Source: Alphaproteobacteria bacterium
GTDB lineage: Bacteria > Pseudomonadota > Alphaproteobacteria > Rs-D84
DNA length: 64,000 nucleotides
Reading direction: 5' to 3'
Assembly (NCBI GenBank): GCA_017502865.1
Contig: JAFVUD010000005.1
Coordinates: 80,007 to 144,006 of the forward strand
Shown: one piece after another, positions 22,989-41,636 of the stretch
How the letters are laid out: every line of letters starts with the position of its first letter
Numbering within the stretch: the stretch's first letter is position 1
Translations under genes and position numbers: made by a program
The notes under the pieces: model-generated
The model's database searches: none
The model's input: only the letters and a program-made list of their open reading frames with translations
Told to the model about the DNA's origin: nothing

Positions 22989-23310
22989 GCAGATGCACAG
23001 GACATGGCGGGACTAAACAACCCGAGGAAAGTCCGGACTGCATGGGACAACACACCGGCTAATATACCGGGCGGGGCGACCCGACGATTAGAGCAACAGT
23101 GACGAAACGATTTAATTCGAGTGAAACGGGCAATCTCTGTGTGCAGCAACCTCAAATAGACCACCTATATGCGTCCCACATTGGTGGCGGGTAGGGGGCT
23201 TGACAAGTATGGTAACATACATTGCAGATTAATCATGTCCACTACCGTTATTTGGTGTCTAAACCACACTGGATTTCGGCAGGACAAAATCCGGCTTATC
23301 GTGCATCTGC
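22989..23310 (+). ncRNA. rnpB: RNase P RNA, bacterial class A
   Basis: The catalytic RNA that trims 5' leaders from tRNA precursors. GAGGAAAGTCCGGACT near the 5' end, AACAGTGACGAAACGA, GGCAATCTCTGTG, and ACAAAATCCGGCTTATCG near the 3' end are the universal conserved blocks of RNase P RNA. GCAGATGCAC (22989-22998) and GTGCATCTGC (23301-23310) are perfect complements and form helix P1, which fixes both ends to within a few bases. A hairpin terminator with a seven-T tail follows at once. Confidence 0.96.
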
Positions 23311-23311
23311 C

Positions 23312-23337
23312 CACGTCCCTTTGGGGCGTGTTTTTTT
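23312..23337 (+). terminator. rnpB terminator
   Basis: CACGTCCC (23312-23319) and GGGGCGTG (23323-23330) form an 8-bp stem with one G-T pair, a TTT loop and a seven-T tail. The T tract overlaps the stop codon of the convergent DUF2817 gene. Confidence 0.9.
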
Positions 23338-39175: not shown

Positions 39176-39200
39176 AACACCCCAAAATGGGGTGTTTTTT
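39176..39200 (+). terminator. terminator after thyA
   Basis: AACACCCC (39176-39183) and GGGGTGTT (39189-39196) form an 8-bp stem followed by TTTTATT. Confidence 0.85.
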
Positions 39201-39201
39201 A

Positions 39202-39229
39202 TTGACTTTTACGCCACCCGTGCTAGCAT
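39202..39229 (+). promoter_or_regulatory. promoter of the 39268 gene
   Basis: TTGACT (39202-39207), a 16-base spacer and TAGCAT (39224-39229) directly behind the thyA terminator; the ATG is 39 bases on. Confidence 0.6.
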
Positions 39230-39267
39230 ACCTGCGGTTTCATCAGGAAACACAGGGGAAACAACAA

Positions 39268-39756
39268 ATGCAAACACAATTATTGCCTATATTTCAATTA
39301 CGTGAATTATGCCTGGCTGCGATTAATCCTGTATTTTATCGGCAAAACGCAACCATGATTCGCAACAGTTCTTTGGCTGCCCAAGATTATTTGTTATCTG
39401 GCACATACAAACGTGAATATCACAGCCACCTGGGTCGCAATTTCAAACACTTGCCCGGGTACAGAAAAATTCACGAAAAATATTCTATTCCATATAATCC
39501 ATACGCCACCAGCCATGACGACAAATCTATCAATCCTGGCCTGGTAATGGATTTAGCATGGTCATTCAATACCGACATTGTCAACGGTATCATCGATGCA
39601 AACGGCAACATTCGCAACCGTGCAACATTGCCAAATTCCCAGGTCTTGGGGGCATACCACTGCTCGGCCACGTCTGGAACACCGTCCAGTGCATTTCGTT
39701 TGCTGTTACCCAGCCAAATGGATGCAATTTTTGCCAAACTGGTCAAAACGAAATAA
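39268..39756 (+). CDS. unknown cytosolic protein
   Basis: 162 residues. AGGGGA before the ATG at 39268 decides the start over a longer frame. No signal peptide or membrane segment. MQTQLLPIFQLRELCLAAIN opens the protein; the middle is rich in His and Tyr (YKREYHSHLGRNFKHLPGYR), and AYHCSATSGTPSSAFRLLLP lies near the end. It has its own promoter and terminator, so it is an independent gene. I do not recognise the family. Confidence 0.65.
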   Translation: MQTQLLPIFQLRELCLAAINPVFYRQNATMIRNSSLAAQDYLLSGTYKREYHSHLGRNFKHLPGYRKIHEKYSIPYNPYATSHDDKSINPGLVMDLAWSFNTDIVNGIIDANGNIRNRATLPNSQVLGAYHCSATSGTPSSAFRLLLPSQMDAIFAKLVKTK

Positions 39757-39759
39757 TCC

Positions 39760-39780
39760 ACCGCCCATTTGGGCGGTTAT
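39760..39780 (+). terminator. terminator before the rpsA promoter
   Basis: ACCGCCC (39760-39766) and GGGCGGT (39771-39777) form a 7-bp stem over ATTT, followed by TATTTATT. Confidence 0.8.
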
Positions 39781-39793
39781 TTATTGAAAAAAC

Positions 39794-39822
39794 TTGCATT
39801 TTGTCAAAAAAGCATATATAAT
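39794..39822 (+). promoter_or_regulatory. rpsA promoter
   Basis: TTGCAT (39794-39799), exactly 17 bases, then TATAAT (39817-39822). The predicted start near 39829 leaves a leader of about 119 bases. Confidence 0.8.
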
Positions 39823-39828
39823 TCGTGC

Positions 39829-39947
39829 GATTTTGCGGGTGGGCGCAGAATCAGTCCGATTAACCCCACAAGACCCCCAGAGAGATTTTAGGTGGCCTGC
39901 CACCCGAAACCTTGGTGAAGGGTGGCAAACTTTGATGAAAATTTCTT
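39829..39947 (+). promoter_or_regulatory. structured leader of rpsA with competing hairpins
   Basis: GCCACC at 39899-39904 can pair upstream with GGTGGC (39891-39896) or downstream, as GCCACCC (39899-39905), with GGGTGGC (39920-39926). The two pairings exclude each other. The second encloses GAA, ACCTTGGT, GAA, that is, a symmetric GAA/GAA internal loop under a CUUG tetraloop. No Shine-Dalgarno site stands before the rpsA ATG. S1 genes are known to be autoregulated at translation in E. coli, and a comparable role is likely here. Confidence 0.6.
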
Positions 39948-39976
39948 ATGAAAGATTTATCCAAAGACTTATTTAA
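39935..39976 (+). CDS. possible 13-codon leader peptide overlapping rpsA
   Basis: ATG at 39935 opens a short frame encoding MKISYERFIQRLI and stopping at 39976, inside rpsA by 29 bases in another frame. GAAGGG lies about 14 bases before it, rather far for a ribosome binding site. It could couple or compete with rpsA initiation, or be chance. Confidence 0.3.
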   Translation: MKISYERFIQRLI

Positions 39977-41636
39977 CCCAGTATCCGGCGAAGATTTCGT
40001 CCAGATGTTCGATGCGAACTATGGTTCCCAGGAAACTTTGCAGGGCTATGCAACCAAAGGTACCGTAAAAGACATCCGTGGCGATTTTGCTATGGTTGAT
40101 GTTGGCCTGAAATCCGAAGGCCGCGTTCCTTTGAAAGAATTCGGTGCATCTGTACCATCTGTTGGCGACATCATCGACGTTTTCGTAGAACGTTATGAAT
40201 CCCGCGAAGGTACCGCTGTTCTGTCTTATACCAAAGCACGTGCAGAAAAAGCATGGAAAGATTTGGAAAAGACTGTTGCCGAAGGCATCGACCCAGAAGG
40301 TACAATTATCGACGTTGTTCGCGGTGGTTTCACAGTGGACATCAATGGCGTATTTGCATTTATGCCATCTTCCCAGGTTGATCACAAACCTATCCGTGAT
40401 GCAAAATCTTTGATTGGTTTAAAAGACAAATTCCGCGTATTGAAAATGGATGCATTGCGTACAAACGCAATCGTTTCACGTCGTGCAATTCAGTCTGACA
40501 CAATCGCAGCTGCCCAGAAAGAAGCGATGAAAAACATCACTTTGGGTGCAGTTATCGAAGGTACTGTTAAAAACATCACAGACTACGGTGTATTCGTAGA
40601 TTTGGGCGGCATTGACGGTTTGTTGCACGTCACAGACCTGTCATGGAAACGCGTAAATCACCCACGTGAATTGGTTCACGTTGGCGAAAAGATTCAGGTC
40701 AAAGTTATCCAATTCGACCCAGAATCACATCGTATTTCATTGGGTATGAAACAATTAGAAGAAGACCCATGGGAAACAGCATCCCGTGCATTCAATGTTG
40801 GCGACACAGTATCTGGCAAAGTATCATCTTTGACAGACTATGGTGCATTCATTGATTTGGGCAACAATATCGAAGGTCTGGTTCACATGTCTGAACTGTC
40901 CTGGACAAACAAAAATATCCACCCAAGCAAAGTTTTGCAGAACGGCCAGGATATCAACGTTGTTGTTCTGGGCATCGACCAGGATAAACGCCGCATTTCA
41001 TTGGGTTACAAACAACTGCAACCAAATCCATGGAAACAGTTTGCCGAAACACACAATGTTGGCGACGTAATCACAGGCCCAATCAAAAACACAACTGAAT
41101 TCGGTCTGTTCGTTGCATTGACACCTGAATTAGACGGTATGGTTCACATTTCTGACCTGTCTTGGAACAAATTGGACGAAGAAGAATTGAAAAAATTCGT
41201 TCGCGGCCAAGAAGTCACAGCCAAGATTTTGGACATCAATCCAGAAAAAGAACGCGTCACATTGGGTATCAAACAATTGACAGAAAGCGCAGAAAACAAC
41301 GCAGTTTCTATCAAGAAAGGTGCTGTTGTATGCGGTACAGTTTCCGAAATCACACCTGACGAATTGATTTTGTCATTGGCTGGCGATGCACGCGGTATCA
41401 TCCGTCGTACAGACCTGTCACGTGAAAAATCTGAACAGGACACATCTAAATTTAACATTGGCGACAGCGTAGAAGCATCTGTAGTTTCCGTTGAAGACAA
41501 CACTGTTAAATTGTCAGTTCGTGCCTTGCAGGTGACATTGGAAAAGCAGGCCGTCAAAGAATTCGCTAACGAAGCCGATTCCGGTTCCGTATTGGGCGAC
41601 ATCTTGGGCGCTGCAATCGAAAACAGCAAAAAATAA
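39948..41636 (+). CDS. rpsA: 30S ribosomal protein S1
   Basis: 562 residues with six S1 (OB-fold) repeats; the third to fifth are most typical (GAVIEGTVKNITDYGVFVDL, GDTVSGKVSSLTDYGAFIDL, GDVITGPIKNTTEFGLFVAL), each ending in a VxVKVIxxDPExxRISLG-like strand. It binds mRNA on the 30S subunit and helps unfold structured starts. The ATG at 39948 lacks a Shine-Dalgarno site, as is common for rpsA, and lies behind a structured leader. A terminator follows. Confidence 0.97.
   Translation: MKDLSKDLFNPVSGEDFVQMFDANYGSQETLQGYATKGTVKDIRGDFAMVDVGLKSEGRVPLKEFGASVPSVGDIIDVFVERYESREGTAVLSYTKARAEKAWKDLEKTVAEGIDPEGTIIDVVRGGFTVDINGVFAFMPSSQVDHKPIRDAKSLIGLKDKFRVLKMDALRTNAIVSRRAIQSDTIAAAQKEAMKNITLGAVIEGTVKNITDYGVFVDLGGIDGLLHVTDLSWKRVNHPRELVHVGEKIQVKVIQFDPESHRISLGMKQLEEDPWETASRAFNVGDTVSGKVSSLTDYGAFIDLGNNIEGLVHMSELSWTNKNIHPSKVLQNGQDINVVVLGIDQDKRRISLGYKQLQPNPWKQFAETHNVGDVITGPIKNTTEFGLFVALTPELDGMVHISDLSWNKLDEEELKKFVRGQEVTAKILDINPEKERVTLGIKQLTESAENNAVSIKKGAVVCGTVSEITPDELILSLAGDARGIIRRTDLSREKSEQDTSKFNIGDSVEASVVSVEDNTVKLSVRALQVTLEKQAVKEFANEADSGSVLGDILGAAIENSKK

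Follow-up and report, generated by a model that had tools for sequence, protein, structure and literature searches.

A conserved predicted pseudoknot and bulged hairpin at the start of rpsA mRNA in an order of Alphaproteobacteria

The rpsA locus

The window analysed here, a stretch of 64,000 nucleotides, comes from an alphaproteobacterial genome of 0.89 Mb in 6 contigs. It carries rpsA on the plus strand (39948..41636), and the promoter and leader features given below lie on the same strand. The gene encodes ribosomal protein S1 (562 aa) with six S1 domains (Pfam S1 matching in six stretches, E 8e-82), and its nearest named relatives come from uncultured gut Alphaproteobacteria, some of them called Candidatus Enterousia. 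Ahead of rpsA lies an ORF of 189 aa (39187-39756) with no Pfam family, and a terminator-like hairpin (39760-39777) stands between this ORF and the rpsA leader; the stretch holding the hairpin (39759-39786) recurs at G000:C6:154216-154245 with 90% identity. Elsewhere in the window, 22989-23314 is a bacterial RNase P class A RNA (Rfam RF00010).

Upstream of the leader, the sequence contains a likely promoter (39794..39822) made up of TTGCAT (39794-39799) and TATAAT (39817-39822) separated by 17 nt. A consensus promoter scan listed no site here. Among the 81 genus leaders having the loop GGG of the first leader hairpin, P1, an exact TATAAT was found 14-16 nt ahead of that loop in 70. From the promoter spacing, transcription would start near 39829, that is, at P1.

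Conserved structure of the leader

Comparison of rpsA leaders revealed a conserved RNA at the start of the mRNA, predicted to fold into a pseudoknot and a bulged hairpin. From 5' to 3', it consists of P1, a pseudoknot between the P1 loop and CCCAC, the motif AAG[A/U]CC, a bulged hairpin (P3) closing on GG(C), and an A/U-rich start. Ninety cores were chosen by a detector requiring both P1 and pseudoknot pairing. Only L165 and L167 were kept from its seven class rows, the other five being judged chance or doubtful, which left 85 cores; 56 of the 90 cores formed alignment A1, in which L142 and L143 were kept though one column out of register. Overlapping genus loci were reduced to 83 distinct leaders by their last 130 bases, and 31 of the 83 full leaders formed alignment A5.

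P1 is a hairpin of 9 bp (39829..39852; 39829-39837 with 39844-39852) and shows two-sided changes at 9 of 9 pairs among the 56 sequences of A1. Its loop, GTGGG (39839-39843), pairs with CCCAC (39865-39869), a segment 3' of the hairpin, as in an H-type pseudoknot (39839..39869), and this pairing covaries in the order. In A1, 96.4% of the GUGGG/CCCAC cells are paired, a percentage inflated by a detector that required pairing; for the same reason the two-sided changes, found at two of the pairs, are the stronger evidence. The covariation totals of P1 and the pseudoknot were reached by 0 of 500 shuffles of the 56 sequences. Among the 85 cores, selected on pairing, the pseudoknot takes 12 distinct forms, including GCGGG/CCCGC, GUCGG/CCGAC, GCGCG/CGCGC, GUAUG/CAUAC and GUGUG/CACAC, and swapping strands among the forms of these selected cores gave full pairing, wobble allowed, in 16 of 132 cases.

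When the detector was applied to all leaders, it found the P1-pseudoknot arrangement in 72 of 83 from the genus, 11 of 15 from the family, 6 of 13 from other families of the order and 4 of 60 from the class; its rate on shuffles was 2.5 to 4.5% of anchored leaders. Of the leaders missed in the genus, L034 and L107 come from truncated contigs, and in L016, L019, L048, L059, L087 and L105 both strands of the pseudoknot can be recognised by eye; L007, L015 and L101, present in the 90-core set, lie too near an edge for this count. By eye, a matching pseudoknot pair is present in all the other-family leaders of the order except L148 and L158, where no motif was seen.

The junction AAGACC (39870..39875), of which AAG and CC are invariant in A1, opens P3 with its CC. 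In P3 (39874..39925), 39874-39878 pairs with 39920-39922 and 39924-39925, base 39923 being bulged. Across the 31 leaders of A5, P3 is 98.4% paired with two-sided changes at 4 of 6 pairs, and the covariation values observed with P3 included were reached by 0 of 500 shuffles. After P3 comes a conserved GGCAAACTTTG (39924..39934), whose GGC is invariant in A5. Judged from these alignments, the conserved parts of the leader are P1, the pseudoknot, the P3 base and GGC; an earlier note on this DNA had chosen other features and missed the two stronger ones, namely the base of P3 and the pseudoknot formed by the P1 loop.

The P3 loop of L007 (1334-1478) holds a large palindromic or repeated DNA insert with the P3 base pairs kept, and the arms of L011, L015, L102, L129, L131, L137 and L142 likewise carry large P3-loop inserts. 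Parts of the L007 insert match other places in that genome; the total, with its own place and self-matches counted, is 12 matches. A mobile repeat was also considered as the identity of the window's P3 arm and rejected, the arm having one copy in its own genome.

The features that the earlier note had chosen were two pairings in the 3' part of the leader, between which S1 or initiating ribosomes were proposed to shift it. On paper both pairings can form, and they are, as claimed, mutually exclusive: GGTGG (39891-39895) with CCACC (39900-39904) in the distal hairpin of the P3 arm (pairing A, 39891..39904), and GCCACCC (39899-39905) with GGGTGGC (39920-39926) in an alternative (pairing B, 39899..39926) that competes with the P3 base. 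The CCACC-bearing arm is confined to a sub-lineage (16 rows in alignment A4, one truncated), in which pairing A is 92.0% paired with one two-sided change and pairing B is 94.6% paired with none. In most other genus members, which lack this arm, the same P3 base closes a short, unrelated one. The alternative is formable in most sub-lineage rows.

Forced folds of 39829-39976 gave -39.0 kcal/mol for P3 with hairpin A versus -41.7 for the alternative, which is 2.7 kcal/mol lower over this stretch of the window; the unconstrained leader fold had z = -2.27. When the 3' part of the leader was folded for 15 members of the sub-lineage, the P3 form was lower in 10, equal in 3 (including the window) and higher in 2, and when the P3 5' strand was barred from pairing, the most stable fold differed from the alternative helix in 6 of 15. 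With the consensus form at least as stable as the alternative in 13 of 15 relatives, and with pairing B restricted to the sub-lineage and free of two-sided changes, a shift between hairpins is not supported as the conserved mechanism. We rejected the two-hairpin switch as a general mechanism; within the sub-lineage, where both pairings can form, it may operate. Held against the refuting condition that the earlier note had set, the switch loses ground and the short frame described below fails.

The leader ends in an A/T-rich start region (39935..39947) without a Shine-Dalgarno (SD) site; the last 16 nt of the genus leaders have a mean A+T of 81%. The absence of an SD site before rpsA, already pointed out in the earlier note, is real and conserved: none of the 83 distinct genus leaders has an SD-like 4-mer in the final 20 nt. 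In the window, 20 of 46 genes (start taken as the first ATG) have such a 4-mer, versus 7 of 46 in the control stretch. Some other alphaproteobacterial orders have SD-like AAGGA or GAGG before rpsA (e.g. L170, L172, L177). The short frame said to overlap the rpsA start is also there (39935..39976, 13 codons, ATG to TAA), but it is not conserved and we judge it incidental. Of the 83 genus leaders, 44 contain no ATG between CTTTG and the rpsA start, and 8 have one with the spacing and phase seen in the window; the other 75 either lack the frame or have it at a different position or in a different phase. A role for the frame found no support in these counts, and a leader peptide was rejected, since the frame is not conserved among relatives.

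Distribution in the order and the class

A covariance model of the leader element, R1, was run on the window's own genome and on 142 genomes of the order. The own genome has one copy (E 9.4e-16, next best 0.8), and the order gave 113 matches in 112 of the 142 genomes. All but two of them (111 of 113) lie 10-377 nt (median 13) 5' of rpsA on its strand, the exceptions being a partial match in G004, on a different contig from rpsA, and a weak one in G117 (E 0.014). Thirty of the 142 genomes had no R1 match under stricter filters, and for some of these no full-length rpsA was found either. The element keeps with rpsA while the upstream gene differs, this being cytidylate kinase in the three distant leaders tested versus the Pfam-less ORF in the window. 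It stands 5' of a ribosomal protein gene and has a covariation-supported structure, as a ribosomal leader does.

Two loci are irregular. In L145 (G043:C5:177236-177836), the P1 5' strand runs directly into about codon 9 of rpsA, and the first codons are gone along with most of the leader, through a deletion or an assembly fault. The rpsA match of L114 (G094:C6:15307-16992, a metagenome assembly) has one internal TAA, possibly a sequence error.

For comparison across the class, 60 rpsA upstreams of other groups were taken. AG[A/T]CC followed by a stem, one bulged base and GG was found in 17 of 59 class upstreams versus 34 of 5900 shuffles. Fifteen of the 17 hits formed alignment A6 (L180 and L200, not ending in GGC, were left out); in these leaders, selected on pairing, the P3 core shows 99.0% pairing, with two-sided changes at 5 of 7 pairs. 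R1 proved too narrow for the whole class: at E<=0.1 it matched 5 of 192 genomes, and the window's own genus accounted for three of the five. A short P3 model, R2, was therefore built from the 15 class P3 leaders and run on 192 class genomes. It gave 37 matches at E<=0.005, of which 36, G176 included, lie immediately upstream of rpsA, 14 in genomes that had supplied the model and 22 in others; the remaining one, in G341, ends 10 bases from a contig end. Three more matches, with E between 0.005 and 0.01, all lie elsewhere than rpsA, and at E<=1 there is a match in 99 of 192 genomes, with many weak ones elsewhere.

The pseudoknot, clear in the window's order, is not supported as a class-wide feature: 12 of 36 leaders from other class orders have it, versus a rate of 0.17 in shuffles. 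Evidence for a nested helix next to AGACC in those orders was weak, with mean pairing above 0.8 in 11 of 40 versus 14% of shuffles; the anchor used there for L189 was not the P3 anchor.

Proposed function and comparison with known systems

We suggest that the element is probably an rpsA ribosomal leader RNA through which S1 holds down its own translation. The expected ligand is S1, because the element accompanies rpsA although the upstream gene varies, and because S1 is described as binding H-type pseudoknots tightly (PMC7708055) and as repressing its own SD-less rpsA start in E. coli, competing with 30S-bound S1 (PMC10931766). In our model, the rpsA mRNA would begin with P1, whose loop would pair downstream to form the H-type pseudoknot; AAG[A/U]CC would open the bulged P3 ending in GGC, and A/U-rich bases would then lead to the SD-less AUG. 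The 30S subunit would start here only through its own S1 gripping the pseudoknot/P3 region and the A/U-rich start, and excess free S1 would occupy the same RNA, blocking or mispositioning 30S, and S1 synthesis would fall. S1 binding and the direction of regulation are what we infer here. The SD-less start (0 of 83) is consistent with free S1 competing against S1 on the 30S; SD-like strings before rpsA in some other orders count against a uniform mechanism and, by the E. coli logic, would weaken free-S1 competition. Of the earlier note's proposal, S1 acting on a structured SD-less leader agrees with the structure, the missing SD site and an E. coli likeness in outline, but the hairpin shift that went with it is not supported as the conserved mechanism.

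The SD-less, A/U-rich start would also suit a standby site or translation enhancer that brings 30S, via ribosome-bound S1, to the start for high output with no feedback, and a pseudoknot standby site requiring S1 is known from tisB (PMC7708055). We consider this unlikely, since a general enhancer could serve other genes too, whereas the tie to rpsA alone suggests S1 feedback. More doubtful still is a ligand other than S1, be it a different ribosomal protein, the 30S subunit or a small molecule. Together, P1, the pseudoknot and the bulged hairpin, with its invariant bases, might provide a specific binding site, and the sequence preference of S1 itself is described as weak (PMC10931766). Against this, rpsA is the sole gene seen downstream of the element in the matches checked, and a sensor of a small molecule should turn up ahead of other genes also. 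There is little chance that the leader chiefly shields the mRNA 5' end from decay; P1 does start at the inferred transcription start, but a covarying pseudoknot and invariant AAG[A/U]CC and GGC are not needed for simple protection. Least probable by our estimate is a switch made of the two exclusive hairpins and the short frame and controlled by S1 or initiating ribosomes. The close predicted energies of both forms in the window and the alternative's formability in most sub-lineage rows speak for it; its confinement to the sub-lineage, the want of two-sided change in the alternative and the unconserved frame speak against it.

Beyond self-repression by S1, we see about an even chance that the leader belongs to an unreported, ancient alphaproteobacterial S1-sensing RNA, with a bulged AG[A/U]CC..GGC hairpin shared by much of the class, a covarying pseudoknot added or kept by the window's order, and S1 self-control independent of the gammaproteobacterial rpsA leader. 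S1 feedback control is described in gammaproteobacteria (PMC10931766); if many Alphaproteobacteria share a conserved leader, this would point to such feedback in another class, perhaps via a different RNA, and would offer a compact pseudoknot for studying by what means a protein with weak sequence preference picks out its own mRNA. A known Rfam family was rejected as the identity of the leader: in Rfam 15 the window leader has no match at the curated gathering score, only weak hits far below it, and 20 further related loci gave two weak hits below that score. Searches of the open literature turned up no paper on an alphaproteobacterial rpsA leader, an unnamed listing being possible in the surveys PMC7247131, PMC2704228 and PMC11109978; the accessible text of PMC10931766 names conserved rpsA start regions only for several gammaproteobacterial families.

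The closest parallel is the rpsA leader of E. coli and other gammaproteobacteria, likewise described as structured, 5' of rpsA, without a canonical SD and with an A/U-rich single strand near the start (PMC10931766). The missing SD is shared by the window's genus (0 of 83), whereas some other orders have SD-like strings. Compared by description only, the gammaproteobacterial leader has a fold conserved in several families of that class (PMC10931766), whereas the window's leader differs in its pseudoknot at the 5' end and its bulged hairpin AG[A/U]CC..GGC. The pseudoknots of E. coli rpsO (S15) and tisB are alike in lying in 5' mRNA, acting in translation start and being bound by S1, but they belong to other genes, and the AG[A/U]CC..GGC bulged hairpin is not in their available descriptions, on which this comparison is based (PMC7708055, PMC3858243). 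The alphaproteobacterial rpsB leader motif, as described, is also a ribosomal-protein leader with a pseudoknot in Alphaproteobacteria, but it stands before rpsB (PMC2704228).
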